DNA of 64,000 bases from Claveliimonas bilis (GTDB lineage: Bacteria > Bacillota > Clostridia > Lachnospirales > Lachnospiraceae): positions 2,604,001 to 2,668,000 of the forward strand of contig NZ_AP024845.1 of the NCBI RefSeq assembly GCF_020892095.1. Reading direction: 5' to 3'. Below are positions 15,301-35,101 of this stretch, one piece after another. A program made the translations under genes and the position numbers. Each line of letters opens with the position of its first letter. Within the stretch, counting starts at the first letter, position 1. Under the pieces are notes generated by a model. It made no database searches, was not told the DNA's origin, and worked only from the letters and a program-made list of their open reading frames with translations.

Positions 15301-15711
15301 GTGAACGGAAAAGATGAGATTATTCAAAGGCTAAAAGAAAACGGGTGCCGGATCACAAAGCAGAGAAAGATCCTGATTGATATTATTTTAGAAAATGACT
15401 GTACAAGCTGTAAAGAAATCTATTACAAGGCATCACAGGAAGATAAAAGGATCGGCTTGGCAACTGTATACCGTATGATCAATGCACTGGAAGAAATCGG
15501 TGCAATCAACAGAAAGAATATGTATAGAGTAGAATGCGGGGAGACAGGTAATAATGATGACGGATGTGAAATTGTTCTGGAGGATGATACGGTTCTGCGA
15601 ATGCCGAAAGAAAAGCTGGATCGGATTGTTCAGGAAGGTGTCAGACAAAGCGGATATCTGAATTCGGGGAAGAAAATATCAAAGATTATTTATCATAGCG
15701 GGCAGATATAA
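15301..15711 (+). CDS. Fur-family transcriptional regulator, atypical
   Basis: A 136-residue protein. The N-terminal winged helix has the Fur hallmarks: ENGCRITKQRKILIDIIL, then EIYYKAS and the recognition helix GLATVYRMINALEEIGAI. The C-terminal half departs from the family: the His-rich metal site (HHH/D-H) and the paired CxxC zinc motifs are missing; only single Cys residues (CGE, DGCE) remain, and it ends GKKISKIIYHSGQI. The start is GTG at 15301 after a GGCGGGGCGA stretch. Position downstream of the metal pump suggests it senses metal or redox state and controls that module, but the sensing residues are not those of a standard Fur. Confidence 0.78.
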   Translation: MNGKDEIIQRLKENGCRITKQRKILIDIILENDCTSCKEIYYKASQEDKRIGLATVYRMINALEEIGAINRKNMYRVECGETGNNDDGCEIVLEDDTVLRMPKEKLDRIVQEGVRQSGYLNSGKKISKIIYHSGQI

Positions 15712-15883: not shown

Positions 15884-17254
15884 CTATTTCTTTGTTTTCT
15901 TTTTCGGCGGATATTCCAGTCCGATCCGTTTTGCCTGACGTTCCGGATCCCAGAAGAATCCCCATTCTACGAATAATTTCCGTTTTGCTGTCTCGGCAGG
16001 AGTCCATGTTACAATGTCTTTATTTTTGTAGAGTTTGTCGATCTCCTCGTCGGTATAGCCAAAGTACTGAAGAACTTCCCTGTTGTGCTCGCCGAAGCAG
16101 GGAGCGGAAGCAACGATCTGAGAAGGATTCTTCTTGAAGATATTGGTAATGCCGATGCCTTTCATGCGGCCGAAGCACTGATCTTCCCATTCCACCAGGT
16201 TCTCACGTGCTTCATACTGCGGATCTTTTTCGATATCAGCAGGTCCGTAAGCTCTCTGGCAGGGGATACCTGCCTTGTTGAAGATTTCTTCCAGCTCGTC
16301 GCAGGTGTGGGAAGCACAGAACTCGGTAAGGAGTTTGTCGGCTTTCTGTCCCCTTGGGTCAAAGAGAGGGAATCCGGTACAGTCTTTTGGAATATCTTTT
16401 GCCACGCCCGGTTTTCCCATACCGATGATCGGATATCCGCGGGTAACAGGACCCTGTCCTGTGATAGCGACAAAGATAGTATTGCCGTCCTTTGTATCGT
16501 AGAAGGAGAAGCATGCCGCCATGTCGCTCTTGTTTCCTGTACGCTCCGGAACAGGCTCGCCCTGCTTCGGATAGCCGTTGTTGAACCACCTTGCCGGATA
16601 GTTGTCCAGCAGACGGAACATTGTGTCATACTGTGCCACGTCACAGGAATCTCCCTCGCCGGTGCGCTGTGCGTTGATATAGCCGGAGAGAGCGACGATG
16701 CAGGCATTGTATGCGGTCACATAGTCTGACAGGTACGGATTTACTTTCAGAGGGCTGGAAGTGGGCGAAGGTCCGTTCAGGTACATATATCCGCCCATTG
16801 CCTGTCCGGACACATCGTAGGACGGTTTGTCCTTAGATGGCCCAAACTGTCCGTATCCTGATACATGGACAATTGTAAGGGCTTTATTGTGTTCCCAGCA
16901 GGATTTATCTGTAATACCGCGTTTTGCGTAAGAGCCCGGTTTACCGGCCTCGATCCAGATATCTGCCCATTCGACACATTTATAGAAGATTTTACGTCCG
17001 GAAGCCTTTGCTGTATTGATCGTAATGGAATATTCGTTGCGGTGGTTCTGAGACCACGACAGTGTACCTCTTGTCTGGCAGGCGATGGAAGGAGATTCGG
17101 CCTGAAGGACCTGTGCTCCCATTTCAGCCATGAGGCATCCGGCAAATGGTCCGGCGATGTTGGTACCGGTTACAAATACCTTAACGCCCTGAAGAACACC
17201 AAACTGCGGATATTCATCAAATTTTTGAGTTAATTTGTTGTCGATTTGTTTCAT
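15884..17254 (-). CDS. baiF: BaiF-like family III CoA-transferase
   Basis: A 456-residue class III CoA-transferase (CaiB/BaiF family). In the bile acid pathway BaiF moves CoA from the dehydroxylated product to a new primary bile acid, saving ATP. Visible features: VFVTGTNIAGPFAGCLMAEMGA near the N-terminus, QNHRNEYSI, VHVSGYGQFGP, and SYDVSGQAMGGYM, which contains the expected catalytic Asp (about residue 147). The NPYLSDYV, VDVAQY-like (DVAQYD) and RTGNKS segments match what I remember of Clostridium scindens BaiF. It is the last gene of the minus-strand unit and has a Lys-rich tail ending PPKKKTKK. A carnitine-type CaiB function is the main alternative; the neighbours favour BaiF. Confidence 0.8.
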   Translation of the reverse strand: MKQIDNKLTQKFDEYPQFGVLQGVKVFVTGTNIAGPFAGCLMAEMGAQVLQAESPSIACQTRGTLSWSQNHRNEYSITINTAKASGRKIFYKCVEWADIWIEAGKPGSYAKRGITDKSCWEHNKALTIVHVSGYGQFGPSKDKPSYDVSGQAMGGYMYLNGPSPTSSPLKVNPYLSDYVTAYNACIVALSGYINAQRTGEGDSCDVAQYDTMFRLLDNYPARWFNNGYPKQGEPVPERTGNKSDMAACFSFYDTKDGNTIFVAITGQGPVTRGYPIIGMGKPGVAKDIPKDCTGFPLFDPRGQKADKLLTEFCASHTCDELEEIFNKAGIPCQRAYGPADIEKDPQYEARENLVEWEDQCFGRMKGIGITNIFKKNPSQIVASAPCFGEHNREVLQYFGYTDEEIDKLYKNKDIVTWTPAETAKRKLFVEWGFFWDPERQAKRIGLEYPPKKKTKK

Positions 17255-17317
17255 GAATAGTTCCCCTTTCTTAAAAAGTAGTATAGTAAATAAATATTAA
17301 CGTAAAATAGCTGCTGT

Positions 17318-18592
17318 TTAATCACCCTGCGGATATTTTGCCTGAAGCTTCTCACTTCCGCTGATGGCGCCGGATACAAAGAAGAACATCAAAACAGCTA
17401 CGATCATGTAGAAGATCCAGGTCATTCCATAACCTGCAATCCCCTGGATAATAGAGGTCAGCACAGCGCCGAAAGCAGATCCGATCAAGAAGAAGAGATT
17501 AGCAGTAGCATAAATTCCGGCATAATCTTTTGTTCCGAATACTTTGGACATCAAAACTGCCGGCAGAACTTTCGGAAGGAACATAGCCAGTGCGAAGAAT
17601 GCATATCCAAATACGACCACTGTAATTCCGGTTACAGAGTAAGCCACCAGACTTGCCAGCCCGACGATAACCAGTACAGCTGCACAAAGAACGGTCTTGC
17701 GGATGCCGAGTTTGTCCATCAACACGCCGCCGCCCAGCATACCAAAAATGGAAACAACGGAATAAACGGACAATACTGTTCCCTGAAGAGTTCCGCCGTC
17801 CTGCGCGATGGATGTGACAAAGTTCGGAACATGAGTTGTAACTCCTGCAGCCAGTATACCGACACAGATCACAACGCCAAGGACGCAGTACCATGCGCTG
17901 GATTTTGTGGCAACTTTTTTAGATACGCCGATCCACTCGGCTGCCTTTTCCTGACGGCTGTCCTTCTGGTCTGTTTTGTTTCCGGTGCGGTATGGTTCTG
18001 TGCCATACTCTGCAGGAGAACGTTTTACCAGGAAGAGGGCAGTAAGGACGGTGATGACGCCGACTGTAACAGCTGCAAACAGCATTGCGGTTTTCCATCC
18101 GTCAGTTCCGGAAGAAATAAATTTTGTAAGAACAGGCGACCATACTGTACCGCCAAGGCCGCCTCCGGCATAAGCGATCGACATCATGGTTGCGCGCCGG
18201 TCTTCAAACCATGCAGTGACAAGCATGGAAATCGGAAGCTGTGTCAGACCGGCCATAAAAATATTTGACAGGCCGAATATCAGGTAGAACTGCCAGATAG
18301 CAGTACAAAAGGTTGCAACTACCCAGCATAGACTTGTTCCGATCGTTACGATCATCATGATGAGTTTCATATTTTTCTTCTGGTACATTCCTGCAATGAT
18401 CATAGCTCCGATCGCACTTGCAAAAGAGGAGATCAGACTTACCATTGACCAGCTTGTTGTACTGAAGCCGAGATCAGCACAAACCGGCGCCATGAACAGG
18501 GAAAAGCAGTTGCTCATAATGGCTGTGGGTATAAATGACAGGATGAACGCTGCAACGAGTACTCCCCAGCCTTTAAATTTTTTAGTCTCCAT
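17318..18592 (-). CDS. MFS transporter, OxlT/monocarboxylate type
   Basis: A 424-residue, 12-span major facilitator protein with a long cytoplasmic loop near residues 200-235 (GNKTDQKDSRQEKAAEW). Motifs such as FMAPVCADLGFSTTSWSMV and AYAGGGLGGTVWSPVL are typical of OxlT/MCT-like carriers. Known BaiG, the bile acid importer, is a different MFS branch with more spans, so this is a replacement transporter and not a BaiG orthologue. The start chosen is the second ATG (18592), which has GGAGA eight bases upstream; the first (18607) has no ribosome binding site and overlaps baiB. Location between baiB and baiF suggests it carries the pathway substrate or product. Confidence 0.82.
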   Translation of the reverse strand: METKKFKGWGVLVAAFILSFIPTAIMSNCFSLFMAPVCADLGFSTTSWSMVSLISSFASAIGAMIIAGMYQKKNMKLIMMIVTIGTSLCWVVATFCTAIWQFYLIFGLSNIFMAGLTQLPISMLVTAWFEDRRATMMSIAYAGGGLGGTVWSPVLTKFISSGTDGWKTAMLFAAVTVGVITVLTALFLVKRSPAEYGTEPYRTGNKTDQKDSRQEKAAEWIGVSKKVATKSSAWYCVLGVVICVGILAAGVTTHVPNFVTSIAQDGGTLQGTVLSVYSVVSIFGMLGGGVLMDKLGIRKTVLCAAVLVIVGLASLVAYSVTGITVVVFGYAFFALAMFLPKVLPAVLMSKVFGTKDYAGIYATANLFFLIGSAFGAVLTSIIQGIAGYGMTWIFYMIVAVLMFFFVSGAISGSEKLQAKYPQGD

Positions 18593-18596
18593 AGTT

Positions 18597-20132
18597 TTAG
18601 TCTCCATTTGAATCTGAATTGTTTTTAATATACTGCTCTACAAGCGTACTGCGTACGACTTTACCGTTTGCGTTTCGTGGAATTTCATCCACAAATTCAA
18701 AAGATTTTGGAATCTTATAAGGGGGCAGATAATCAAGGGCAAGCCGTATCAGACTTTTATCGCTTACAGGCTCCTTGGTCTCAACGATAGCGTGGATGCG
18801 ATGCCCCCATTCCTTGTCGGGAATACCGACAACAACCACATCTAAAACTTTTTTTGATTTTTTTAATACAGTTTCTACCTCATTGGCAAATACATTCTCT
18901 CCTCCGGTTACGATCATATCGCTGCGCCTGTCGACAAAATACAGATAACCATCGTTATCGATATATCCGATGTCGCCCACACTCCGAAAACCGTCTTTGG
19001 AGATTTCCGGCGGAGGAGAATTTAAAAATCCGATTTCCGGTGCATTTTCTGTCCAGGACATATAGATATTACCGGCCTGACCGACAGGAAGATCCTGCCC
19101 GTTGTCGTCACGGATCGCAATACTTCCGCAAGGCATTTTTCCAACGCTGCCTTCATGGATCAGCCATTCATCCCCGCGGATAGAGGTGATCCCCACACAT
19201 TCTGTCATGGAATAGATTTCATATATTTTCTCCGGTGAAAGAATGCGGAACCATTCCTTCTTAAGATCTGGAGAACAGACTCCTCCGGTATGGCATAAAA
19301 CTTTCAGGCTGCCAAGATCCTCCGGATTAAAATCCGGCATCTTGATAATGCGCTGCATAAGCGTTGGAACCAACTGTACGTACTCGATCTGGTGTTTTTT
19401 GATTAAAGCTACGATTGCTCTCTGGTCGAAACAGGAGGGCATATACAATGTATTTCCGCAAAAAAGCCCATTAAAGGCGACAGAGTGAGGGGCACCGTGA
19501 AAGAGCGGCCCAGCCAGAAGCTGACGCATTTCAAATCTCATGCCGGTCATGGCAAACCATGCCCGAAGCCCTTCATCACTTCCTCCGGCGGGCATATTTT
19601 GAAGGACAACCTTGGTTTTTCCTGACGTTCCGCCGGTACAGTTTGCAAGATTGGGTACAGCAAGAGTATCGGGCGGCATTTCAGCCGGATATTCCTGGCA
19701 TACTTCTTTTAATTTGGTTGAACTCAGACTGAAATATTTGCTTGGCTTCCAGCGGTTAGTCACAACAAGAGACGGTGAGACACATCCGCATATTTCAAGA
19801 AGATTCCTTCTGGGAAGCCTGTCGGATACAGGAACATAGCATGCACCTGCTTTCCAAATGCCAAATGCAAGAGCAATATGTGTGGGAATGTTAGGGAGCG
19901 CTACAACTACACTTTTACCTGATCGGATTCCCTGATCCATAAGATACCATGCAATTCGATTGGATAATTCCTCCAGAGCCCGCCAGGTCATGACGGACTC
20001 TGTATTCTTAGGGGAAATGTATACGATCGCAGGATCATCTGGTTTTGCTTTTGCGATATTAGCCAACTGAGTTCCAGGAGTAAAAAAACTATTGTTGCTA
20101 TGATTAAAAATATTGAAGCGTGATGTACACAC
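18597..20132 (-). CDS. baiB: BaiB-like bile acid:CoA ligase
   Basis: A 511-residue AMP-forming acyl-CoA synthetase. The AMP-binding P-loop is CTGGTSGKTK, followed by LLAGPLFHGAPHS, LCHTGGVCSP, EIYSMTECVG, the hinge region VDRRSDMIVTGGENVF and the C-terminal catalytic Lys segment NANGK. The HGAPHS, HTGGVCSP and IRGDEW segments are features I recall from BaiB of C. scindens, which activates bile acids with CoA as the first step of 7-dehydroxylation. The start is GTG at 20132 with GAGAGG upstream. It lies between the SDR gene and the MFS gene in one unit. Confidence 0.83.
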   Translation of the reverse strand: MCTSRFNIFNHSNNSFFTPGTQLANIAKAKPDDPAIVYISPKNTESVMTWRALEELSNRIAWYLMDQGIRSGKSVVVALPNIPTHIALAFGIWKAGACYVPVSDRLPRRNLLEICGCVSPSLVVTNRWKPSKYFSLSSTKLKEVCQEYPAEMPPDTLAVPNLANCTGGTSGKTKVVLQNMPAGGSDEGLRAWFAMTGMRFEMRQLLAGPLFHGAPHSVAFNGLFCGNTLYMPSCFDQRAIVALIKKHQIEYVQLVPTLMQRIIKMPDFNPEDLGSLKVLCHTGGVCSPDLKKEWFRILSPEKIYEIYSMTECVGITSIRGDEWLIHEGSVGKMPCGSIAIRDDNGQDLPVGQAGNIYMSWTENAPEIGFLNSPPPEISKDGFRSVGDIGYIDNDGYLYFVDRRSDMIVTGGENVFANEVETVLKKSKKVLDVVVVGIPDKEWGHRIHAIVETKEPVSDKSLIRLALDYLPPYKIPKSFEFVDEIPRNANGKVVRSTLVEQYIKNNSDSNGD

Positions 20133-20188
20133 AGCATTTAACCTCTCATTTCTCTCCCAGATTCGAGTTTTTTCTATATGTATATCGC

Positions 20189-20956
20189 TTAATTAGCGAC
20201 ATTTGCCGGTCTGTATCCGCCGTCTACAGGCAGGGTAACGCCTGTGATATAGGAAGCGGCGCTGGAAGACAGGAAAAGAATCGCATCAGCGATAACCTGA
20301 GGTTCGCCGATATGGCGAAGCGGGATGCCCTGCGCAAGGCTTTTCTTAGCAAATGGCGGAACCGTGTCAAGAAGTTTCGTGTTGATGACGCCAGGTGCAA
20401 CAGCGTTGCAGCGGATTCCGGCATAAGCCTGCTCCCACGCCATGGACTGTGTGAAAGCGATAACACCGCCTTTGGATACCGGATAAGGGCATCCGCATCC
20501 GGAACCGTAAATACCTGCTACGGAAGCGGTATTTACGATACAGCCTTTTGTCTTTTTCAGCAGTTTGATGGCGTATTTTGTCATGTTGAACATACTTTTA
20601 ATGTTGGTATCCATAACATAATCCCACTGTGCCTGTTTCATTTTGTGGATCGGGAGACTGCTGTCAACGCCGGCGTTGTTTACTAAAATATCCAGTTTTC
20701 CCCACATTTCTTCAATTTCAGCATACAGTTCCTGCGCAGCTTTGTAATCGCACAGGTTGATTGCTTTGTGTTTAAATTCATAATTTGGATTGATGGATTT
20801 GAGTTCCTCAAGCTGTGCGCTTACATCTTCTCCTTCTTTGCCGAGGAAATAAACTTTTGCTCCTGCTTTCAGATAAGATTTTACAGTGGCATATCCAATG
20901 CCTGTGGTACCGCCAGTAACCAGTACAACTTTTCCTTCAAATTCGTTTTCAAACAT
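20189..20956 (-). CDS. BaiA-type short-chain dehydrogenase/reductase
   Basis: A 255-residue classical SDR. The nucleotide loop is TGGTTGIG (residues 14-21), the stability motif is NNAG (93-96) and the catalytic triad is Ser 145, Tyr 158 and Lys 162 (YPVSK). It ends GGYRPANVAN, close to the C-terminus of BaiA enzymes, which oxidise the 3-alpha-hydroxyl of bile acyl-CoA. Start 20956 is chosen because AAAGGGGA precedes it by eight bases; an upstream ATG at 21025 would add 23 unlikely residues. It is the first gene of the SDR-baiB-MFS-baiF unit, so 3-hydroxysteroid dehydrogenase activity is likely, but another stereospecificity (BaiL or 12-alpha type) cannot be excluded. Confidence 0.75.
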   Translation of the reverse strand: MFENEFEGKVVLVTGGTTGIGYATVKSYLKAGAKVYFLGKEGEDVSAQLEELKSINPNYEFKHKAINLCDYKAAQELYAEIEEMWGKLDILVNNAGVDSSLPIHKMKQAQWDYVMDTNIKSMFNMTKYAIKLLKKTKGCIVNTASVAGIYGSGCGCPYPVSKGGVIAFTQSMAWEQAYAGIRCNAVAPGVINTKLLDTVPPFAKKSLAQGIPLRHIGEPQVIADAILFLSSSAASYITGVTLPVDGGYRPANVAN

Positions 20957-21202
20957 TGTTTGATCCCCTTTCCTGAATGTAAATATGTGTGAATTTCTTT
21001 TTTGTTTTCGAAGCTTTCCCGTCACCTCGAAAGTCCATCACCAATGTGTCATCCAATGACTGTCGATATTTTAACATATTTTTGATCATACAACGGTTGG
21101 AAAGTTGTGGCTTTATGCTAAAACAAAGAGACAAAAAGTAAGAATTTATAGTCAATTTGACAGACGTATAGAACTTGAAGAAGGGGAAACCGGTGAAAAT
21201 GC

Positions 21203-21246
21203 AAAAGAGTCATTGTTAAAAATATATTTTTAACAATGACTCTTTT
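21203..21246. terminator. 44-bp perfect palindromic bidirectional terminator
   Basis: Two 22-base arms (21203-21224 and 21225-21246) are exact reverse complements with no loop base between them. The outer ends are A and T runs. It lies between the cupin-only regulator gene and the SDR gene, ending the regulator transcript. Confidence 0.85.
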
Positions 21247-21289
21247 TACAATTTTCCTCTGATAGCGCCTCTGCTTTGTACCCTTTATA

Positions 21290-21889
21290 TTATTTTTCTG
21301 AAGGAGACAGATAACCTTTGGGAATACAGTCAGTGATCAGGCCAAAAAAGTCCATAATATAACAGAAACAAAAATGGATACTGTCTTTGGAATGATTTTC
21401 AGTCTCGCTTAAGAGAGCATCCATGGAATCATTGGCGATCTGGGCCGACAGTCCTTCAAGAGAGGCGATCGGCGGCTGCGATGGAACAACCATATGCTCA
21501 TATTTCAGATATGGATTCGCGATCATATATACGTAGGTACTGCTGTTGATGCGCGCCTCTGCAATGGTAAGTTCCTCCTGGCTGGAGGGAAGCAGGCGGT
21601 AGCGGTGAAAGGGACTTAAATAAATTAAAGTGTTCGGCTTCAGTTTGTACCCCATTCCGTTTACATATATCGTTCCTGTTCCCGAACGGACCAGAAGAAA
21701 AGTTTGCTCCTGATTGTTAATGTAAGATGTCGGAGCTTTAATATGCCGTGTGCGCGCATGAATATCCTGTGGAAGCACGTTGTTGGAAAAATAATCATGT
21801 GCACCGGAAAACGTAGAATTATTTCTGGGGGAAGATTTTTGTTTATTCTGTGTACTTTTTGATGTGGAATCCTTTTGCATAGTCATCAT
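21290..21889 (-). CDS. Cupin sensor-domain protein lacking a DNA-binding domain
   Basis: A 199-residue protein. Residues of about 55-150 form an AraC-type N-terminal cupin (TFLLVRSGTGTIYVNGMGYKL-type pattern, PNTLIYLSPFHRYRLLPSS), followed by a helical segment usually used for dimerisation. The AraC helix-turn-helix pair is missing: the gene ends IPKGYLSPSEK and no HTH coding lies in the 40 bases before the terminator. The Ser/Lys/Gln-rich N-terminus looks disordered. It overlaps the upstream AraC gene (ATGA), so both are made together. It may bind the inducer and form mixed dimers with its neighbour. Two AraC-type genes, barA and barB, are known upstream of the C. scindens bai operon; this could be a shortened relative. 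Confidence 0.7.
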   Translation of the reverse strand: MMTMQKDSTSKSTQNKQKSSPRNNSTFSGAHDYFSNNVLPQDIHARTRHIKAPTSYINNQEQTFLLVRSGTGTIYVNGMGYKLKPNTLIYLSPFHRYRLLPSSQEELTIAEARINSSTYVYMIANPYLKYEHMVVPSQPPIASLEGLSAQIANDSMDALLSETENHSKDSIHFCFCYIMDFFGLITDCIPKGYLSPSEK

Positions 21890-23163
21890 CTGCTTTCTTT
21901 TATGGTTTTAGGCGGGATGCTTTTTTCGTCCTGTTCCCCCCGACGCTGCCGTTTTCTGAATTCGCCAGGGGAAAGGCCGTTAATATTGAAAAATACCCGC
22001 GTCATCGTGCGGTCGGAACCAAAACCGGATTCAATAGCAATATCCAGAATGGGCAGGTTAGTAGTAGCCAGCAAAGATTCTGCATAGCGCACCCGGAACT
22101 GAAGCAGAATGTCTTTGTAGCTGGCATTCAGTTTTTCTTTAAACTGACTGCGCAGGATATTTTTTGTAGTGTAAAGATCCCGGGTCATAATATTTGCATC
22201 AATAGGTTCAGTCATATTGTCATATAGATAAGTGATGGCAGACAGAAGAGGTTCACTGATTATCGTTCCCCGATAGATCCGTCCGTCTTTACCGTTGCTT
22301 AGCATCTGTTCCCGGTAAGCCAGGGGCGTCATATCTGTTATGGCTTTGAAATGACGGAAAAATGAAATCTCTTTATTAAAACCGGAAATCGAAGATATGT
22401 AGTTAAAAGGCAGATTATCATAAAGAAAATATGCCATTGCATGCGCCAGCCGCATCCGGTTCAGATACTGGCCGAAATTCAGCCCGGTAACGACAAGAAG
22501 CGTATGATTAAGAGACGCTTCACTTGAAGAAGGGCATACATTATCGACTACGTCCGATACAGTCAGGGGCGCATTACTGTGGGTAGCGATATACAGGCTG
22601 ATCTTCCGGCTCAAGGGGAAAGACTCAAACTGGTAGCTCGCCTTTGCGCTCTGTGCCACACGGTTATAGAGTAGTTCGATCTTACGGAGAAAAGAGCTGC
22701 GCAGGATAGCTGATCCGTAAGATTTCTTCTTACCTAGTTTCTGGAACTGATCGAATAAGTGGATGATCTGTTCCACCTCGGAGCCAGCCGGACCGATTAC
22801 AGGAAGACTGTTGACAATTTCCTGTTCTTCATTAAAAGATATTCTGCTGAAAGAATAATAGTTTAAAAGCTGATAATCATAAGAACAGACCCATAGCTGA
22901 AGTTGTTCATTAAAATCCGGACAGATTGTAAGAACTTGCGAGCATTGGATCCATGATATGCAGCCGGGCTCCACTGCAAATTTTTCCCCATTTATAATAA
23001 AAATGCCACGCCCCTTTTTTACAAGAATAAAATAGCTGTCAAACTCCATGATCGGACACATTTCAGTACTGACGGTATATTCCTGAAGTTTCAGATACTT
23101 GTCAGGACCGCAGAATATGCCGTTTCTTGGTGGTTCGCATAAGGGATAGATCTTTTTGTTCAC
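21886..23163 (-). CDS. AraC-family regulator with two tandem HTH domains
   Basis: A 425-residue protein. Residues 1-125 are an AraC-type cupin sensor (FDSYFILVKKGRG, PGCISWI). Two complete-looking AraC DNA-binding regions follow: about 186-286 (LNFGQYLNRMRLAHAM ... ISSISGFNKEISFFRHFK ... MTPLAYREQ) and about 304-406 (SYKDILLQFRVRYAESLL ... ILDIAIESGFGSDRTMTRVF ... LSPGEFRKRQ). A normal AraC protein has one such region and is about 280-300 residues. The start is GTG 23163 with GAGGTGA upstream. It is the probable bile-acid-responsive activator of the surrounding genes, by position and by analogy with BarA/BarB; neither inducer nor target is shown by sequence. Confidence 0.78.
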   Translation of the reverse strand: MNKKIYPLCEPPRNGIFCGPDKYLKLQEYTVSTEMCPIMEFDSYFILVKKGRGIFIINGEKFAVEPGCISWIQCSQVLTICPDFNEQLQLWVCSYDYQLLNYYSFSRISFNEEQEIVNSLPVIGPAGSEVEQIIHLFDQFQKLGKKKSYGSAILRSSFLRKIELLYNRVAQSAKASYQFESFPLSRKISLYIATHSNAPLTVSDVVDNVCPSSSEASLNHTLLVVTGLNFGQYLNRMRLAHAMAYFLYDNLPFNYISSISGFNKEISFFRHFKAITDMTPLAYREQMLSNGKDGRIYRGTIISEPLLSAITYLYDNMTEPIDANIMTRDLYTTKNILRSQFKEKLNASYKDILLQFRVRYAESLLATTNLPILDIAIESGFGSDRTMTRVFFNINGLSPGEFRKRQRRGEQDEKSIPPKTIKESR

Positions 23164-23315
23164 AATAATACGTCACCTCTCTGATTTCTGTGGCAAATGT
23201 CGAAATATGACACTCCAAGTATGCGAAAAGGATAGCATATTGAAAAAGAAAAATCAATGAGGCACATAAATTTTTTGGATTTTCAGATTTTGAAACGAAG
23301 AAAGGTAAAAATAGA

Positions 23316-23351
23316 AAAAACTGCAGATACTACATGGCATCTGCAGTTTTT
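23316..23351. terminator. Bidirectional terminator between baiH and the AraC gene
   Basis: AAAAACTGCAGAT (23316-23328) pairs perfectly with ATCTGCAGTTTTT (23339-23351). On the minus strand it stops the baiH transcript before the AraC gene, making baiH its own unit. Confidence 0.88.
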
Positions 23352-23385
23352 CCAGGAGTAGAATGTCTTTTACAGTCTATATTAT

Positions 23386-25377
23386 TTACAATTTGTAAGC
23401 GGCCTCAAAACCTTCCCACATAGCGAAGCTTGCCTGGCGGGCTCTCACCGCGTCGCCGATTGCATATACTTCAGGAATAAATGTCTTCAGTTCTTCGGAA
23501 AGCGGATCGTAATTTCGGGAACCGAGGCCGAAAAGTACATAATCAAATCCGCGGAGCCATTCCTCCGTGCCGTCTGCTCTTTGTACTTTTACGTCGTGAT
23601 CTGTTACTTCCAGGATTTTGGAATTTACGTTAATATCCACACCTTTGCTCTTGAGCTTCCGTACCATTGGAGTACGGTTCGGCGCGCAGACATTGGTGAG
23701 AAGCTGGGGCAGCATCTCCACCATTGTGACTTCCACATCACCGATGCTGGCTTCAAATCCCCTGGTAAAGGAATTAGGACGTGCATTTTCGAGAAGAACT
23801 TCTGCAGTCTCACAGGCAACGGCGCCGCCTCCCAATACGCAGACACGTCCTCGCGGAATGACAATCTTGCCGCGTAAGAAATCGTGAGCTGTACGGACCG
23901 GATAATCCTGTGTTCCTTTGATCGGCGGGATCAAAGGTCTTGCGCCGGTAGCTACGATCACGGCGTCAGGAGCAAATTCCCGAACTGCTTCTACAGTGCC
24001 CGTTTTGCCAAACTCAAAAGTTACACCGGCTTTTTTAGCGCGATAGTTTAAGTGCACCATCCATTTGGTCATTTCCTGTTTGCCGGGGGCAACAACAGCC
24101 AGATTCAGCTGTCCGCCGATTTTTTTATCAGCTTCCCAGACAGTAACCTGGTGTCCTCTTTCTGCAGCTGTGACAGCAGCCATCATACCTCCGGGACCGG
24201 CGCCCACCACCAGTACCTTCTTGGATTTTTCAGCCGGAACTTCCGGAAAATCATATTCTCTTCCGACTCTCGGATTGATATGGCATCTGCACTGTGGACT
24301 TGCCTCGCTGCGGGTGATACAGCTTCCGCCGCAGCTTGCGCATGGCGTGATATCATCAAACCGGTTTTCATAGGCTTTTTTGCACAGATCAGGATCTGCA
24401 AGAAGCGGACGTCCCATAGATACACCGTCTACTAGACCGCGCTCTACAATATCTGCTGCATAGCGGATATCATTGATCTTTCCAACAACAAAAACAGGGA
24501 TATTTACTACTTTTTTGATTTCAGATGCTTCATATACATTTACACCGATGCTCTTGTTCTGGCAGGGGATGATATGCTCCAGTCCTTCATACTGGGTACC
24601 GCCGGAAACTTCAAGCATATCGACTCCGGCCGCTTCAAATTTGGGAGCCAGGTACAACATATCTTCGAGAGAGTTGCCTCCGATCATACGTTCGTCGCCG
24701 GAAATACGCAGGAAGATCGGAAAATCCCGGCTTACATTTTTCCGGACTTCTTCAATGACTTCCAGAATAAATCTTGCGCGGTTGTCCAGACCTCCGCCGT
24801 ATTCATCCATTCGTTTGTTGCGGAGAGGAGACAGGAAAGAACCGGGAAGCATATAGGCGTGAGCGCAGTGAAGACTGACGCCGCCGCATCCGGCTTCTTC
24901 CGCCCGGCGTGCAGCCTGACCGTACTGTTTTACGATCTTTTGGATTTCTTTTACCGTAACAGGACGGCTGACATGACAGTTGGCGTTTACATTGGCAGAA
25001 GGTCCGAGAGGTGCGATCTTACGGTATCCGCAAATAGATTCGGGACCTGCATGGATGATTTGAGGAATCAGAACACTGCCTGCCTCCCTGACGCGTTCTG
25101 CAAACTGTTTAAACTGTGGAACAAGACTGTCTTTATCCAGAGATGTCGTGTTTCCCATATAAGGATATTTGCTGTCGACAGTTACAGCGTCGATTACAAT
25201 ATAGCCGGTGCCGCCCTCGGCGCGCCGTACAAAAATATCCGCCAGCTTTTTCGGGACGGATCCGTCTGCTGCTTCATAATCCATACTCATAGGAGCCATT
25301 GCCACTCTGTTCTTCAGAGTGGTTCTTCCAATCTGAATAGGACTGAAAAGCTTTGAATTTTTCATATCTGTTATCAT
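23386..25377 (-). CDS. baiH: BaiH-like NADH:flavin oxidoreductase (old yellow enzyme with FeS/FAD)
   Basis: A 663-residue member of the 2,4-dienoyl-CoA reductase branch of old yellow enzymes. An FMN TIM barrel (residues 1-340, with LKNRVAMAPMSMDYEAADGS and SLHCAHAYMLPGSFLSP) is followed by a 4Fe-4S site CASCGGSC plus a fourth Cys, and a Rossmann FAD/NAD part (VVGAGPGGMMAAVTAAERGH, CVLGGGAVACE). Long segments match my memory of C. scindens BaiH almost residue for residue, making this the best conserved bai gene here. BaiH oxidises the steroid A ring at C4-C5, classically of 7-beta-hydroxy substrates. AGGAGG precedes ATG 25377. It is transcribed divergently from baiCD. Confidence 0.9.
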   Translation of the reverse strand: MITDMKNSKLFSPIQIGRTTLKNRVAMAPMSMDYEAADGSVPKKLADIFVRRAEGGTGYIVIDAVTVDSKYPYMGNTTSLDKDSLVPQFKQFAERVREAGSVLIPQIIHAGPESICGYRKIAPLGPSANVNANCHVSRPVTVKEIQKIVKQYGQAARRAEEAGCGGVSLHCAHAYMLPGSFLSPLRNKRMDEYGGGLDNRARFILEVIEEVRKNVSRDFPIFLRISGDERMIGGNSLEDMLYLAPKFEAAGVDMLEVSGGTQYEGLEHIIPCQNKSIGVNVYEASEIKKVVNIPVFVVGKINDIRYAADIVERGLVDGVSMGRPLLADPDLCKKAYENRFDDITPCASCGGSCITRSEASPQCRCHINPRVGREYDFPEVPAEKSKKVLVVGAGPGGMMAAVTAAERGHQVTVWEADKKIGGQLNLAVVAPGKQEMTKWMVHLNYRAKKAGVTFEFGKTGTVEAVREFAPDAVIVATGARPLIPPIKGTQDYPVRTAHDFLRGKIVIPRGRVCVLGGGAVACETAEVLLENARPNSFTRGFEASIGDVEVTMVEMLPQLLTNVCAPNRTPMVRKLKSKGVDINVNSKILEVTDHDVKVQRADGTEEWLRGFDYVLFGLGSRNYDPLSEELKTFIPEVYAIGDAVRARQASFAMWEGFEAAYKL

Positions 25378-25776
25378 AAAACTTCCTCCTGAACGTTTGT
25401 TTTAATAAAATAATAAACGAACTGAAAGAGGGAGAATGCACATTTTTTTGTCAATCAAGCTACATTTTCAAAAAAAATCGTGAGAAAGTATTTCTGTAAA
25501 ACAGGACATTTATTTAAAAATCACTACAAAATTCAGAGAGAACTCTTGGCAATTAGACAATAGTGATATTAAAAATCGAAATTTTGTACATTGTTTGTAT
25601 ATAATAATCAAATTTTTGCTCCTGCAGGAATGTAAAGATAGTGTTAAAATTTAAACAACTTTTAAGGATTACAGCTATGTAATCTGTTCATCACCATTAT
25701 AAAACTAAATACTGAAATGAAATACTATGAATTATATTCAAACATTTTCTGACAGGTAATTCCCGTATCTGCCAGA
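25378..25776. promoter_or_regulatory. AT-rich divergent promoter region between baiH and baiCD
   Basis: About 400 non-coding bases separate the two divergent start regions. They are much richer in A and T than the genes. TATAATAAT near 25600 and several TTGACA/TTGTAC-like hexamers occur, but no -35/-10 pair with proper spacing stands out for either strand, as expected for activator-dependent promoters. No gene was found in it. Confidence 0.55.
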
Positions 25777-25806
25777 AGGAGGATACAGATGAAAGATCTG
25801 TATTAA
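25777..25806 (+). promoter_or_regulatory. Leader mini-ORF with strong SD and overlapping hairpin before baiCD
   Basis: AAGGAGG (25777-25783) is followed six bases later by ATG (25789) opening a five-codon frame, MKDLY-stop. ATACAGAT (25783-25790) and ATCTGTAT (25796-25803) form a perfect 8-bp hairpin across its start codon. The real baiCD start is 41 bases further on with a weaker ribosome site. This could be a translated leader that tunes baiCD translation; function is inferred. Confidence 0.45.
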
Positions 25807-25829
25807 GAAAAGAGAGGATGGTTTGGAAA

Positions 25830-27752
25830 ATGAGTTATGACGCATTGTTTTCACCGATTAAACTGAGAGGACTGGAGCTGAAAAACAGAGTAGTTCTCCC
25901 GGGGATGAATACAAAGATGGCCAAAAACAAACATGATGTAGCGGAAGACCTGACAGGATATCATGGAGCGATCGCAGCAGGAGGCTGCGGACTGAATATT
26001 GTGGAGATTGCTACAATCTGTCCGGAATGTCACGCCTATCTGTATCTTGGCCTTTATAATGAGCACCACAGAGATGAGCTGAAGAAGATTGTAGATGCGA
26101 TCCATGAAAACGGTGGAAAGGCTGCTGTGCAGATCTGGCATGGAGGATTTGTTCCCCAGGAGTTTTTTGATAAAACGAATAAGCTGGAAACACCGGACAA
26201 TCTTACAGTAGAGCGTATTCATGAAATTATCAAACAGTACGGGCAGGCGGCAAAATTTGCCGTGGAAGCCGGATTTGATGCGCTGGAATTTCACGGAGCG
26301 CACACTTATCTGCCTCATGAATTTATGAATCCTTCTTTGAATCAGAGAACAGATGAGTACGGCAATCAGAGCCTGGAAAACCGCTGCCGCTTCAGTCTGG
26401 AGGTAATCCGGGAAATGCGTGCAAATATGCCGGATGATATGCCTTTGATCATGCGTATCGACGCCATTGATGAGATGCTTCCAAAGGTTACAACAGTAGA
26501 AGAAACCATCCAGTTTATCAACTGGGCAGAAGAAGCCGGCGTGGATGCCATGGATCTTTCCAGAGGGAATGCCCGCAGTCTTGCAACTGTTTATGAGGTT
26601 CCTCCTTATAATTTGGAGCCGGGATTTAATATGGATAATATTGCAGCAATAAAAAAAGGTATTCACATTCCTGTTATCGGAGTGGGACGTGTCAATATGC
26701 CGGGACTTGCAGATGAACTGATCCGCGAAGGAAAGATCGATATGATCGCGGTTGGAAGAGGACAGCTGGCTGATCCACAGTGGTGCAATAAGGCAAAAGA
26801 AGGCCGCGAGGAGGATATCCGCCGCTGTATCGGATGTACAGAAGGATGTTATGACAAGGTTATCGATCCGAATGCGAAACATATTACCTGTACGAGAAAT
26901 CCTATGCTTTGTCTGGAATACAAAGGACTTCCAAAAGCTGAAACGCCAAAGAATGTTATGGTGATCGGCGGAGGTATCGGCGGTCTGGTTACAGCAGAAT
27001 TTCTGAAAGCGCGGGGACACAATCCAACGATCTACGAAGCGGCGGAAAATCCGGGAGGAAGATTTGTGCTGGCAGGAAAAGCACCTAAGAAGCAAGAATT
27101 TGCTGCCGCTGTAGAATGGGAAATTGAGCAGTGCAGGAAGAAAGGTATTGAGATCAAGACTGGTACAAAAGTAACACCGGAGCTGATTGAAGAAGTAAAG
27201 CCGGATCATGTCATCATAGCAACCGGCTCTGAATATGTAAAACCGGATATTCCGGGAATTGATGGAGCAGACGTTGTTTCTGCAGAAGATATTCTGACAG
27301 ATAAAGCAGAGGCCAAAGGAGAAGTGCTGATCCTGGGCGGTGGTCTGATCGGCTGTGAGACAGCCCAGTATCTGATCAACAAAGGCGTGAAGGATGTCCG
27401 TATTATGGATAAAAAGCGTGTCGGAAACAAGATGGGTATGCTGCGTACGATGTTCCTTGATATCGAGTATCCGGGCAAGACGATCCAGAAGAGCAACCGA
27501 AGCAATATCACAAGCATCGGCGACCATGAGATTACATATAAGTTTACAGATAAATTCAAAAAGACAAGCGAGAAAACCCGCCATTTTGACACTCTTGTAA
27601 TTTCTGTAGGAACGACATCCCGGAAGACAGAGGATCTGAAAGCAAAATGTGAAGAATTGGGAATCGCTTATGATGTAATTGGTGACGCGAAGAAAGTAGG
27701 AATGGGTATTGATGCGACAGCCGACGCATACGCAGTTGGAATGAGCGTATAA
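25830..27752 (+). CDS. baiCD: BaiCD-like 3-oxo-delta4-steroid oxidoreductase
   Basis: A 640-residue old yellow enzyme paralogue of baiH. The FMN barrel carries LELKNRVVLPGMNTKMAKN and LEFHGAHTYLPHEFMNPSLN; the 4Fe-4S site is CIGCTEGC with a later Cys in ITCTRNP; two Rossmann loops follow (VIGGGIGGLVTAEFL and ILGGGLIGCETAQYL). The start SYDALFSPIKLRGLELKNR and the NTKMAKNKHD segment are what I recall of C. scindens BaiCD, which forms the C4-C5 double bond of 3-oxo-7-alpha-hydroxy bile acyl-CoA. ATG 25830 fits the family start; ATG 25818 would add MVWK and sits too close to GAGAGG. It is followed by baiE after 23 bases. Confidence 0.88.
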   Translation: MSYDALFSPIKLRGLELKNRVVLPGMNTKMAKNKHDVAEDLTGYHGAIAAGGCGLNIVEIATICPECHAYLYLGLYNEHHRDELKKIVDAIHENGGKAAVQIWHGGFVPQEFFDKTNKLETPDNLTVERIHEIIKQYGQAAKFAVEAGFDALEFHGAHTYLPHEFMNPSLNQRTDEYGNQSLENRCRFSLEVIREMRANMPDDMPLIMRIDAIDEMLPKVTTVEETIQFINWAEEAGVDAMDLSRGNARSLATVYEVPPYNLEPGFNMDNIAAIKKGIHIPVIGVGRVNMPGLADELIREGKIDMIAVGRGQLADPQWCNKAKEGREEDIRRCIGCTEGCYDKVIDPNAKHITCTRNPMLCLEYKGLPKAETPKNVMVIGGGIGGLVTAEFLKARGHNPTIYEAAENPGGRFVLAGKAPKKQEFAAAVEWEIEQCRKKGIEIKTGTKVTPELIEEVKPDHVIIATGSEYVKPDIPGIDGADVVSAEDILTDKAEAKGEVLILGGGLIGCETAQYLINKGVKDVRIMDKKRVGNKMGMLRTMFLDIEYPGKTIQKSNRSNITSIGDHEITYKFTDKFKKTSEKTRHFDTLVISVGTTSRKTEDLKAKCEELGIAYDVIGDAKKVGMGIDATADAYAVGMSV

Positions 27753-27775
27753 TACTAAGGAAAGGACAGGATATT

Positions 27776-28324
27776 ATGACAATTGAAGAACGTCTTGAGG
27801 CATTGGAAAAAGAAGTGCAGCAGCTGAAGGATGTACAGGCAATTAAAGAACTGAAGAGCAGATATTTCTGCGCAATGGATACAAAGGACTGGGAAGCGAT
27901 GGAAGCCACTATGGCACCGGATATTGAGACATCATACTCTGATGGTAAACTGGTATTCCACGGTCCGAAAGAGATTACAAATTATCTGGCAGAAACGATG
28001 CCGAAAACAGAAATCACTCTGCATCAGGGACATAATCCGCAGATCTGGTTTGAGAGCGATACAGTTGCCTATGGAAAATGGTATCTGCAGGATGATCTGC
28101 TTTTTGATAAGGGTGATACTTATGAAGGTCTGGAGATCAGGGGGTCTGCTATTTACACGGATAAATATGTAAAGATTGACGGACAGTGGCTGATCCAGGA
28201 TACCGGATATCTCCGCATTTTTGAGGAGTCATCCCAAAGAGATGCGACACACCGTGTTCGTATCAGTATGTTCCGCCCTGCTACAAAGAAAAAGAAAATC
28301 GCAAAAAGAAAAACAACAAAATAA
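27776..28324 (+). CDS. baiE: BaiE-like bile acid 7-alpha-dehydratase
   Basis: A 182-residue NTF2/SnoaL-fold protein. BaiE catalyses loss of the 7-alpha-hydroxyl, the committing step of 7-dehydroxylation. The start TIEERLEALEKEV and the segment SYSDGKLVFHGPKE correspond to BaiE. The residues I recall as catalytic in C. scindens BaiE (Tyr30, Asp35, His83, Asp106, Arg146) are present as Tyr30, Asp35, His83, Asp106 and Arg147, the shift being due to a one-residue insertion near position 115. The protein is about 16 residues longer than usual because of a Lys-rich tail (TKKKKIAKRKTTK). AAGGAAAGGACAGG precedes the ATG. It is co-transcribed with baiCD. Confidence 0.88.
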   Translation: MTIEERLEALEKEVQQLKDVQAIKELKSRYFCAMDTKDWEAMEATMAPDIETSYSDGKLVFHGPKEITNYLAETMPKTEITLHQGHNPQIWFESDTVAYGKWYLQDDLLFDKGDTYEGLEIRGSAIYTDKYVKIDGQWLIQDTGYLRIFEESSQRDATHRVRISMFRPATKKKKIAKRKTTK

Positions 28325-28336: not shown

Positions 28337-28380
28337 GCAAATATGCCGCTGTGCCTGTTTTGGTATAGCGGTATATTTGC
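28337..28380. other. Long intercistronic stem-loop after baiE
   Basis: GCAAATATGCCGCT (28337-28350) pairs with AGCGGTATATTTGC (28367-28380) with a single G-T wobble and a 16-base loop. There is no T run on the plus strand, so it is a weak terminator at best; it may separate or protect the baiCD-baiE message from the following glycan genes. Confidence 0.6.
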
Positions 28381-28429
28381 AAAAACGGCGATTTGAACAG
28401 ACAAGACGGGAAGAGAAGAGGTGGGAAAG

Positions 28430-29545
28430 ATGCTGCGGGAATATCGCAGAAAAATTTACAAAAAAATCCGTTTTGAGACATGGTACCGCAAAGGTAATTA
28501 TTATTGGCGCAAACGGGATAAGATGGATGAGATCATTGAGAAGTACAAAGGCCCGGAAGCCTTTGAGGACCGTCGGTATCTTCGCAGGCTGAAGAGGGAT
28601 ATGATCCGGAGTCTTTTTAAATATGGTTCTTACTACAGCGAATACTTTCTCTATGATTATGAAGGGAAAGATCCGGAATACCGGGCGTCTTTCATTACAG
28701 AAGGAATACGAATGAGTTTTTATCCCCGGATGAATAAACGAAAAAACACCGACATTTTGGAAAATAAATACAGGACGTATAAGAAATTTGAGAATATGTA
28801 CAAGCGGGAAGTCATCCGCATCAGAAAAAATGAAGATCCGACCCAGGAAAATTTGAAAAAGCTGCAGGAATTTGCCGGCCGTCATGGTGAGTATGTAGTG
28901 AAACCGGTATATGCAGCATTTGGGAAGGCAGTGAGAATTGAAAATATCGCCATGTACGATTCGGTAGAAGACGCCCACGAGCATTACCGGAAATATGGCG
29001 CTGTTATAGAAGAAAAAATCGAACAGGGATGGGAGATGGCCCGCATACACGAAGGGTCCGTCAATACACTCCGCATTCCTACTGTTATTATCCGAAACGA
29101 AAAAAACGAGCCGGAGATCAGGTTGTTTCATCCTTCTCTTAGAATGGGAAGGGAGGGCAGCTTTGTAGATAATTTCAGCGCCGGCGGGATCAGCGCACTG
29201 ATCGATCCGGACAGCGGAGTGATCTATACGGACGGCGCTGATAAAAAAGGCCACAGTTATGAGTGCCACCCGGACAGTAAAGTGAAGTTTAAGGGGTTCG
29301 GGATTCCCCGGTGGGAGGAAGCTGTAGCAATGGTAAAGGAAGCAGCGATGATGATCCCGGACAACCATTACTGCGGATGGGATCTGGCTTTTGCCAGGGA
29401 CAGAGGCTGGTGCATGGTTGAAGCAAACTGTACGGCGCAGATGGGAGCTATGCAGATGGTGGAAAAAAAAGGACGCAGGCATGAGCTGGAGGATCTGATC
29501 ACACAGATGCAGGAGAAGAGGGATTGTGATGAAGCAGTTAGATGA
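28430..29545 (+). CDS. Sugar-transfer-type ATP-grasp protein 1
   Basis: A 371-residue ATP-grasp enzyme of the sugar-transfer-associated kind (ATPgrasp_ST). The basic N-terminal 100 residues precede the fold: YVVKPVYAAFGKAVRI binds the nucleotide, IEEKIEQG, VNTLRIPTV, VDNFSAGGISALIDPDSG, HPDSKVKFKGFGIPRW and the metal site GWDLAFARDRGWCMVEAN follow in the usual order. ATP-grasp enzymes join a carboxylate to an amine or similar group through an acyl phosphate; in glycan loci they are thought to attach amino acids. ATG 28430 is chosen over GTG 28421 for its AAGAGG. It overlaps the next gene by 17 bases. Confidence 0.82.
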   Translation: MLREYRRKIYKKIRFETWYRKGNYYWRKRDKMDEIIEKYKGPEAFEDRRYLRRLKRDMIRSLFKYGSYYSEYFLYDYEGKDPEYRASFITEGIRMSFYPRMNKRKNTDILENKYRTYKKFENMYKREVIRIRKNEDPTQENLKKLQEFAGRHGEYVVKPVYAAFGKAVRIENIAMYDSVEDAHEHYRKYGAVIEEKIEQGWEMARIHEGSVNTLRIPTVIIRNEKNEPEIRLFHPSLRMGREGSFVDNFSAGGISALIDPDSGVIYTDGADKKGHSYECHPDSKVKFKGFGIPRWEEAVAMVKEAAMMIPDNHYCGWDLAFARDRGWCMVEANCTAQMGAMQMVEKKGRRHELEDLITQMQEKRDCDEAVR

Positions 29546-30584
29546 AGTCAAAAGATATCTGAACGCAAGGAAGCATATACGGCAATTTGCAGGTGAGTAT
29601 GCAGAAAAATCCGGAGAGGATCCAAAAGATGTGGAGCGGGATATCCTGCAGGCTAAGAAGAGGAACCACATTTCATTTGCAGAATATGAATGGACGGGGT
29701 ATTATCACCTGACTCCGGAACAGAAGAAGACAATCTCTACGCTTTGGACACGGATGGAATTTCGGAAGCAATTTACAGACAGACGTTATATCGGAATGCT
29801 TATGAATAAGTATATCTTTTCAAAAGTGTTTGGGGATTTTTATGGCCGATGGTGCATGCGTGCGTCTGAAGCAGATGCCAAAAGCTTAAGAGAAATGGCA
29901 AAAGAGAGCGGCCGTGTTGTTTACAAACCTAATTGCAAAGGAATGGGGCAGGGAATCCGCGTTCTTTCTGCCAGGACAGAGGAAGAGGCAAAGGAAGCTC
30001 TGCAATATATTCAAAAAAGCGGCGGCGGGATTGTGGAGGAGTATATCTGCCAGGATGATCTGTTAACCTCGCTGAATCCCAATGCCGTCAGTGTGATCCG
30101 GTTTTATTCTGCCAGTTCTCCGGAAGGCGAATTTCTCTTTGCTCCGGTGCTTACAGTGGCGCATAAGAATAAAATTTCCAACGGCTGCAAGGATGCACTG
30201 ACTGCAATGGTGGATATCCGGACGGGAGAAGTGCTGACTGATGCAGTAGACCAGAACAGTGGGGAGATCTATCAGGCACATCCGTCCACCGGAATGGCAT
30301 TCAAGGGATTGAAGCTGAATAATTGGGATAAGACGATCCAAATGATGCGACGGGCGCTGCCTCTTGGAAGAAAAATATCCAACATCGGATGGGATGTGGC
30401 TCTTACAAAAGAAGGACCGATTCTGGTGGAGGCCAATACAATACCGGGTTTTATGACGGCACAGTATGCAGGATTCGGATGGATCACAGACGGATACGGT
30501 TACCAGCCTCTCTTTGATGCGGTGCATGGCAAGTCCTTTGAAGACGACGGACGTTATGAGAGAGTGGTCCTGAAGCTGGAATAG
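29529..30584 (+). CDS. Sugar-transfer-type ATP-grasp protein 2
   Basis: A 351-residue paralogue of the preceding gene. Nucleotide-binding VVYKPNCKGMGQGIRVLSA, VEEYICQDD, NAVSVIRFYSA, an AMVDIRTG segment, HPSTGMAFKGLKLNNW and the metal-binding GWDVALTKEGPILVEAN mark the ATPgrasp_ST fold. The FSAGG loop of the other copies reads SNGCKDAL here, so the substrate pocket probably differs. Translation is coupled to the upstream gene by overlap. It likely adds a different residue or acts at a different position of the same glycan. Confidence 0.8.
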   Translation: MKQLDEVKRYLNARKHIRQFAGEYAEKSGEDPKDVERDILQAKKRNHISFAEYEWTGYYHLTPEQKKTISTLWTRMEFRKQFTDRRYIGMLMNKYIFSKVFGDFYGRWCMRASEADAKSLREMAKESGRVVYKPNCKGMGQGIRVLSARTEEEAKEALQYIQKSGGGIVEEYICQDDLLTSLNPNAVSVIRFYSASSPEGEFLFAPVLTVAHKNKISNGCKDALTAMVDIRTGEVLTDAVDQNSGEIYQAHPSTGMAFKGLKLNNWDKTIQMMRRALPLGRKISNIGWDVALTKEGPILVEANTIPGFMTAQYAGFGWITDGYGYQPLFDAVHGKSFEDDGRYERVVLKLE

Positions 30585-30630
30585 TGCAAAGGAGGTGGGA
30601 TATCGCCGAATACAAAGAGGAGTATGCAAG

Positions 30631-31464
30631 ATGGCAGATAAGATCAGGGTATATTACAGTAAAATTCACAATATGGGAGATCTGCTGAATAAACTGATCA
30701 TTGAGAAGTGCTTTGGCTATGAGACGGTACGCTGTTCTTTTCTGGAGGGAGAGATGTGTGCCATCGGAAGCTGCCTTGGAATGTATACCTTGCACGGTAC
30801 TGTGCCTATGCGGATACAGCAAAGGATCAACGGGATCCAAAAGCCCCATGTGTCCATCTGGGGAACTGGTTTTATCAATTATACAGACTGTGAAGGCAGC
30901 TTTTTTAAAAGAGATATGAATTTCTGCGCGGTTCGGGGAGAACTTACAAGAAAAGCAGTGGAAAAGATGAGGAAGAAAAGGCTGGATATTCCCACGGCAG
31001 ACGCCGGGATTTTGGCGGCAGAAGTGCTGGAGAGCCTTCCACGAAAACGCTATGACGTAGGTGTCATCCCCCATCTTTGTGATCTTCAGGATCCCAGGGC
31101 GGCAAATCTTCATCAGGAGTATGAAAATGCCCGCTTCATCAGTGTGAAGGAGGAGCCGCTGGAGGTGATCCGGCAGATTGCAGAATGCCGCTTTATTCTT
31201 TCCAGCAGTCTTCACGGGCTTATTATAGCAGACAGTATGGGGATTCCCAATCTGCACGTGGAATTTGGAGACAGACTGTTGGGGGATGGATACAAATTCG
31301 ACGATTATTATTCCGCTTACGGGTTGACACATAAGCCCTATGATATGCGCACAGAGCCCCTTCCGGAGCTTGCCTGGATCCAAGAACAGTACAGGATCCG
31401 TCCGGAAGCGGTGGAAACAAAAAAGAAAGCTTTACGGGAAGTATTTCCTTTTCCGGTAAAGTAA
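30631..31464 (+). CDS. Polysaccharide pyruvyl transferase family protein
   Basis: A 277-residue protein of the PF04230 family, which adds pyruvate ketals to sugars or transfers related groups. Hallmarks are the N-terminal NMGDLLNKLIIEK, VSIWGTGFINY, FCAVRGELTRKAV and the signature SSSLHGLIIADSMGIPN near residue 190. ATG 30631 follows GAGGAG at nine bases; a GTG at 30595 is also open but less likely. It is the only non-ATP-grasp modifying enzyme in the cluster and suggests an acidic group on the finished glycan. Confidence 0.85.
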   Translation: MADKIRVYYSKIHNMGDLLNKLIIEKCFGYETVRCSFLEGEMCAIGSCLGMYTLHGTVPMRIQQRINGIQKPHVSIWGTGFINYTDCEGSFFKRDMNFCAVRGELTRKAVEKMRKKRLDIPTADAGILAAEVLESLPRKRYDVGVIPHLCDLQDPRAANLHQEYENARFISVKEEPLEVIRQIAECRFILSSSLHGLIIADSMGIPNLHVEFGDRLLGDGYKFDDYYSAYGLTHKPYDMRTEPLPELAWIQEQYRIRPEAVETKKKALREVFPFPVK

Positions 31465-35099: not shown

Positions 35100-35101
35100 A
35101 A

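Follow-up and report, generated by a model that had tools for sequence, protein, structure and literature searches.

A split bai locus in Claveliimonas bilis, very probably the published bile acid 7-alpha-dehydroxylation genes of Eubacterium sp. c-25, and the cassette that follows it

A 64,000-nucleotide stretch of the Claveliimonas bilis genome (contig NZ_AP024845.1, positions 2,604,001 to 2,668,000; hereafter the window) carries homologues of the bai genes in several separate units, followed by a cassette of ATP-grasp and glycosyltransferase genes. We are highly confident that this locus corresponds to the bai genes already published for Eubacterium sp. c-25 and that it performs bile acid 7-alpha-dehydroxylation. 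The genome is almost certainly that of c-25, for which we take Claveliimonas bilis to be the name. The split arrangement is real but already known, in print since 2021, because Song et al. 2021 (PMC8623032) describe the same layout. Its interest is that the dominant uncultured bile-acid dehydroxylating group of the human gut has a similar layout; c-25, as is already known, is the cultured strain in which the split layout was shown to work. The part that could be new is the cassette together with snoaL2, a third SnoaL-type gene, and we propose their functional tie to bile acid metabolism with modest confidence. That the bai genes are one half of a larger unit, with the cassette in the same system and providing, for example, a polymer of the envelope as a shield against deoxycholate, seems to us a serious possibility that falls a little short of probable; it is weighed below with the cassette.

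Gene layout and the published c-25 system

All nine genes proposed in the first-pass annotation, which had been made from the window sequence alone, were found where it had placed them and in the same directions (Table 1). That annotation had denied a single baiBCDEAFGHI operon, and its three units were confirmed, namely a short-chain dehydrogenase/reductase (SDR) gene with baiB, a major facilitator superfamily (MFS) gene and baiF, then baiH alone, and baiCD-baiE. With the barA-barB unit, the locus consists of four separate units and uses both strands. The predicted regulator pair is present as barA-like and barB-like genes, which are flanked by the baiA unit and baiH and share their minus strand. 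The terminator assigned to baiH corresponds to a hairpin of 17 pairs, ending in a T-rich tail, at 23353-23314 on the minus strand, and the two old yellow enzymes, BaiH and BaiCD, are indeed apart and face away from each other, their genes being divergent across a 440-base gap. A SnoaL gene of the BaiI family lies at approximately 216 kb of the genome, approximately 0.6 Mb from the locus if the chromosome is circular. The window does not show the single co-directional run with baiG and baiI of the Clostridium scindens type, and it shows the multi-cluster arrangement of the c-25 type, with baiA2-B-MFS-F, a lone baiH, baiCD-E and barA/barB upstream of baiA2.

The layout reported by Song et al. 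2021 (PMC8623032) for c-25 is unlike that of C. scindens and comprises baiA2-B-MFS-F (baiA2BGF), barA/barB, a lone baiH, baiCD-E and a distant baiI. Gene set, order and orientation are the same in the window, and no difference in the bai genes was seen between the two. The published locus tags are EUBC25_24880-24960 for the bai genes and EUBC25_02220 for baiI (PMC8623032); if the tags step by ten, the former would cover nine genes, as in the window, and the latter fits the place of the SnoaL gene at approximately 216 kb. From cholic acid, c-25 makes deoxycholic acid and 7-oxo-deoxycholic acid, and cholic acid induces baiB 218.8-fold, baiCD 291.8-fold and baiH 13.9-fold (PMC8623032). The conversion supports the earlier suggestion of a distinct lineage of secondary-bile-acid producer. 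In addition, BaiB and BaiA of UBA11811, a relative from the uncultured Oscillospiraceae cluster 1, show in vitro activity towards cholic acid and cholyl-CoA (Kim et al. 2022, PMC9426597). The present analysis contributes the homologies, the clade placements, the conserved residues and the layout; activity and induction were shown by other groups.

In the order of steps of the known bai pathway, the MFS protein of c-25 would take up the bile acid, BaiB would couple it to CoA, BaiA would oxidise the 3-hydroxyl and BaiCD would form the 4-ene. BaiE would then remove the 7-alpha-hydroxyl as water, BaiF would transfer the CoA, and BaiH, BaiCD and BaiA would reduce the product to deoxycholic acid.

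Concerning the boundaries of the units, a sigma-70 scan for unit promoters was uninformative, because it gave 26 hits and shuffled sequences gave 26.4 on average, and an Rfam search across 15000-37500 gave no match. As to a regulator site that the units might share, an alignment of upstream regions from four genomes showed conserved blocks. In our reading, the SDR starts at the ATG at 20956 (255 aa), which is common to three relatives, so the annotated open frame begins too early. The true start of AG4 probably lies further inside its open frame, because that frame overlaps AG3.

Table 1. Features of the bai locus and the adjoining cassette, in positions of the window
Feature	Position	Strand	Match or remark
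baiF-like CoA-transferase (family III)	15884..17254	-	PF02515
MFS transporter, at the baiG position	17318..18607	-	best NCBIfam model conjugated bile salt MFS transporter, below cut-off
baiB, bile acid-CoA ligase	18597..20132	-	NF038344; PDB 4lgc
baiA-type SDR	20189..20956 (open frame to 21025)	-	PDB 4is2
barB-like protein	21290..21889	-	no match in Pfam or NCBIfam; 43-62% in 14 of 17 listed lineage loci
barA-like AraC-type regulator	21886..23163	-	PF12833, PF00165
Terminator-like hairpin after baiH	23314..23353	-	17 pairs, T-rich tail
baiH	23386..25377	-	80-82% to C. scindens-type BaiH; clade support 100
baiCD	25818..27752	+	NF041087, just below cut-off; clade support 94
baiE, bile acid 7-alpha-dehydratase	27776..28324	+	PDB 4l8p, 4leh, 4l8o
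Stem-loop in the gap from baiE to AG1	28337..28380	+	-31.4 kcal/mol; no T-run on the plus strand; classed as terminator-like only for the minus strand
AG1, sugar-transfer-associated ATP-grasp, cassette gene 1	28421..29545	+	PF14397
AG2, ATP-grasp	29526..30584	+	PF14397
Polysaccharide pyruvyl transferase-like	30595..31464	+	PF04230
GT2a, glycosyltransferase family 2	31476..32354	+	PF00535
GT2b, glycosyltransferase family 2	32294..33232	+	PF00535
TupA-like ATP-grasp	33229..34104	+	PF14305
AG3, ATP-grasp	34116..35099	+	PF14397
AG4, ATP-grasp	34916..36169	+	PF14397
snoaL2, third SnoaL-type gene	36217..36747	-	PF13577

Assignment of the single Bai proteins

A scan of public genomes for BaiE gave at least 22 loci, and all counts of lineage loci in this text rest on those listed (labels L and G denote loci and genomes of the comparison set). 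Seventeen of them form the lineage of the window (L004-L019 and L024; BaiE 61-85% identical), and five are of the C. scindens type (BaiE 54-56% identical to that of the window). Several are near-copies in BaiE (L007/L008, L011-L013, L014/L016 and L015/L017/L018), so the 17 loci amount to approximately seven lineages; likewise, genomes G001 and G004 are not independent of L006 and L004.

The homologies of BaiF, BaiB, BaiA, BaiH, BaiCD and BaiE that the first-pass annotation had proposed held under Pfam, NCBIfam and PDB searches. BaiB passes its curated model with 868.8 bits against a cut-off of 650, and its best solved structure is BaiB itself. Among PDB entries, the SDR matches a bile acid 3-alpha hydroxysteroid dehydrogenase best. 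The identity of BaiE to its crystallised counterparts is 52-56%, and Tyr30, Asp35, His83 and Asp106 (window numbering), presumably the catalytic residues of BaiE, are kept in every one of the 25 BaiE rows and nine BaiI rows. Homologues of BaiA and BaiF, both part of the pathway, are present in the locus. The CoA-transferase shares 43% identity with Extibacter muris BaiF, and the protein recurs with 79-90% identity in the lineage loci where the region is covered, except that L019 has a 25% identical CoA-transferase instead. BaiH is the closest to the C. scindens type, at the identity given in Table 1 for all five loci.

Trees, which had been named as a check on the assignment, place both BaiE and BaiCD with their bile-acid namesakes. 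In a quick tree of BaiCD and BaiH, made from the window and rows from 13 of the 22 listed loci, BaiCD groups with 13 other BaiCD rows and BaiH falls in the BaiH clade; L006, L008, L009, L011, L013, L015, L017, L018 and L019 were left out as near-copies, partial sequences or genes in two frames. The mutual branching of the BaiH lineages (c-25 group, C. scindens type and Oscillospiraceae) is unresolved in this tree. In the tree of SnoaL-type proteins, which omits L008, BaiE of the window stands with three Lachnospiraceae loci (82/100), and BaiI (96/100) and snoaL2 (100/100) are separate from BaiE; the BaiE group needs two changes on the tree. BaiE of the Hespellia locus L019 (61% identical) joins the C. 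scindens side (92/99), and the genes of this locus are co-directional, yet AG1 and AG2 are present.

Several observations weigh against our assignment. BaiCD reaches 805.4 bits, just below its cut-off of 825, the best curated model of BaiF is a carnitine CoA-transferase, itself under cut-off, and the MFS protein scores 181.5 bits against a cut-off of 400. Song et al. 2021 (PMC8623032) give 22% identity of the MFS protein to BaiG and do not call it BaiG. In addition, another genome of the same species (G321) exists, which bears on the identity with c-25, and we met no gene deletion in c-25 in the literature.

The shortfall of BaiCD, together with identities of only 36-57% to C. scindens-type proteins (BaiH excepted), could be taken to suggest a merely bai-like pathway for another steroid acid, which the first-pass annotation had allowed for. 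We consider this extremely unlikely, and the alternative is not needed: the published culture data, in which c-25 produces deoxycholic acid from cholic acid and its genes respond to cholic acid (PMC8623032), lead us to reject another steroid acid as the substrate, BaiB and BaiA of the relative act on cholic acid and cholyl-CoA (PMC9426597), and the BaiE residues are kept. A chance gathering of unrelated homologues is ruled out, since baiCD-baiE and most of the other genes recur in order in related loci.

As a separate observation, BaiH of c-25 is nearer to C. scindens-type BaiH (80-82%) than to Oscillospiraceae BaiH (70-75%), whereas its BaiCD and BaiE are nearer to those of Oscillospiraceae. 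These contrasting identities hint at a possible mosaic bai locus in c-25.

The cassette downstream of baiE

Directly after baiE, eight genes on the same strand encode four ATP-grasp proteins of the sugar-transfer-associated kind (AG1-AG4), a TupA-like ATP-grasp protein, a pyruvyl transferase and two glycosyltransferases. Their order after baiE is colinear across the lineage, in Lachnospiraceae as well as in Oscillospiraceae, which favours the larger unit outlined above. AG1 adjoins baiE, or lies a few bai-type genes off, in all 17 lineage loci, and AG2 follows in 16 (the contig of L008 ends before it). The pyruvyl transferase, GT2a and GT2b are each found in 15 loci, the TupA-like gene in 14, AG3 in 10 and AG4 in nine, most gaps reflecting the end of the sequence. 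An opine-dehydrogenase-like gene and a sodium-solute symporter gene are each present in 10 of the 17, and c-25 has neither here. No cassette gene was found in the available stretches of the five C. scindens-type loci. At E <= 1e-40, AG1 has a match in 17/17 lineage genomes versus 0/5 C. scindens-type whole genomes, which also speaks for a larger unit, as does the interleaving of bai-type genes with the start of the cassette in 7 of the 17 loci: snoaL2 and baiI stand between AG1 and AG2 in L007 and L009, an SDR gene between baiE and AG1 in L014, L015, L017 and L018, and two SDR genes, a CoA-transferase gene and an MFS gene between baiE and AG1 in L019.

The joint occurrence was followed in wider genome sets. 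Among 41 relatives, AG1 and BaiE are found in the same three genomes (the window's own and two genus-mates). Of 299 genomes of the family, two have AG1 (E <= 1e-60), namely that of the window and another from its species. BaiE was found in these two and in G110, where it is 52% identical and AG1 gave no match. Against a larger unit, three others of 391 class genomes have weaker AG1 matches (35-40% identity, E <= 1e-40) where BaiE was not found at E <= 1e-20; near one of these matches, in G635 (L055), two AG1-like genes but no other cassette gene or bai gene were seen. A cassette glycosyltransferase has distant matches (32-40%) in six of 199 other family genomes. The parts of the cassette are ordinary, and what recurs is their combination beside bai.

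Further points count against the larger unit. A strong stem-loop occupies the gap after baiE in the window, and 16 of the 17 lineage loci (all but L019) have one there as well, a count made with no shuffled control. These stem-loops mostly lack a T-run on the coding strand, and their position is kept while their sequence varies; in the three C. scindens-type loci examined (gaps of 30-86 bases), no stem-loop was found after baiE. The stem-loop may end or protect the baiCD-baiE transcript, so that co-transcription with AG1 is no more than possible. The recurrence itself comes from roughly seven distinct lineages and not from 17, and the loci were found by scanning for BaiE. The cassette families are common. 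Moreover, the cassette of L019 stops after AG1 and AG2, its contig running on for 3.3 kb past AG2 without the pyruvyl transferase or glycosyltransferases, and transfer of the whole block by descent would give linkage without any shared function.

As for its product, our tentative suggestion, which we hold as possible and no stronger, is that the cassette, often with the opine dehydrogenase and the sodium-solute symporter, builds a peptide-sugar polymer or else a bile-acid conjugate, in connection with deoxycholate production, with snoaL2 acting on bile acids. Self-protection is our favoured guess for its role. The terms ATP-grasp, glycosyl and polysaccharide are absent from the main text of PMC8623032 and PMC9426597, their figures and supplements being outside our scope, and PMC11748489 mentions neither ATP-grasp nor glycosyl. 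We found nothing in the open literature on the cassette beside bai; figures, supplements and subscription papers were outside this search, which makes it weak evidence of absence. If the cassette does belong with bai, it would hint at how producers tolerate a toxic bile acid, or at products that have not been sought, and the link could be tested in the cultured strain.

Related loci and additional SnoaL genes

The bai loci of Sporofaciens musculi, Dorea sp. AF36-15AT and AM58-8 have almost the same arrangement as that of c-25 (PMC8623032), and for S. musculi the likeness was also checked here (L005, L067). In S. musculi, baiI directly follows baiH (PMC8623032; L005/L067), whereas in c-25 it lies at approximately 216 kb. 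In Oscillospiraceae cluster 1, Firmicutes CAG:103 / UBA11811, the bai genes are split in the same order, and baiH again points away from baiCD-baiE (Kim et al. 2022, PMC9426597). The CAG:103-type locus L009 carries the cassette too, but its BaiH is only 73% identical to that of the window, and it differs from the window by the snoaL2 and baiI genes inserted into the cassette. On the CAG:103 contig (L009:8004-9954), baiCD is split over two overlapping frames, by a frameshift or an assembly error.

The C. scindens-type operon, represented by the Extibacter, Dorea D27, CE91-St61, Proteocatella and Peptacetobacter loci, has the same enzyme set as the window but forms one co-directional run from baiB to baiH, unlike the several units of the window. 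With the window SDR as the query, baiA between baiE and baiF was undetected in three of these five loci. P. sordellii ATCC 9714 has two putative bai clusters and, like the window, not one operon (review PMC10382948). Its baiA-baiCD and baiH-baiE pairing differs from that of the window, its regulator is of the IclR type and not of the AraC type, and it has no full gene set (PMC10382948).

The third SnoaL-type protein, snoaL2, keeps the Tyr, Asp and His positions of BaiE but not Asp106; among solved structures, a putative scytalone dehydratase matches it best (E 0.0093). The gene is found in the same three of 41 relatives as BaiE, in 12 of the 17 lineage genomes and in one of the five C. scindens-type genomes (Proteocatella). 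Its place is directly behind baiF in the two genus-mates and likewise in S. musculi and UBA1701, whereas in Limivicinus it stands between baiB and an unlabelled frame that is transporter-like by eye. The link is not constant, however: the examined stretches around snoaL2 in G708, G711, G713 and Proteocatella showed no close bai gene, and neither did the 5-kb contig of G712 with its two snoaL2 copies.

Three flavoenzyme genes and one neighbour of baiF are recorded here as minor observations. Directly upstream of the distant baiI (L056:11312-13899, approximately 216.3-218.9 kb of the genome), there is a gene for a BaiCD-like flavoenzyme with 40% identity to BaiCD, of which we met no mention in the part of Song et al. 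2021 (PMC8623032) drawn on here. In a genus-mate, a gene beside the cassette (L053:4482-7946) encodes a 1154-aa BaiCD-like flavoenzyme that is 51% identical to the one next to c-25 baiI, with an extra C-terminal part that by eye resembles an NAD-dependent epimerase. A flavin reductase-like gene (FAD_binding_2 and FMN_bind) lies between barA and a baiA-type gene in L016 (2619-4439, minus strand). Finally, at 12885-15711 of the window, beside baiF, a P-type ATPase gene (PF00122) is accompanied by a small gene that is Fur-like by eye.

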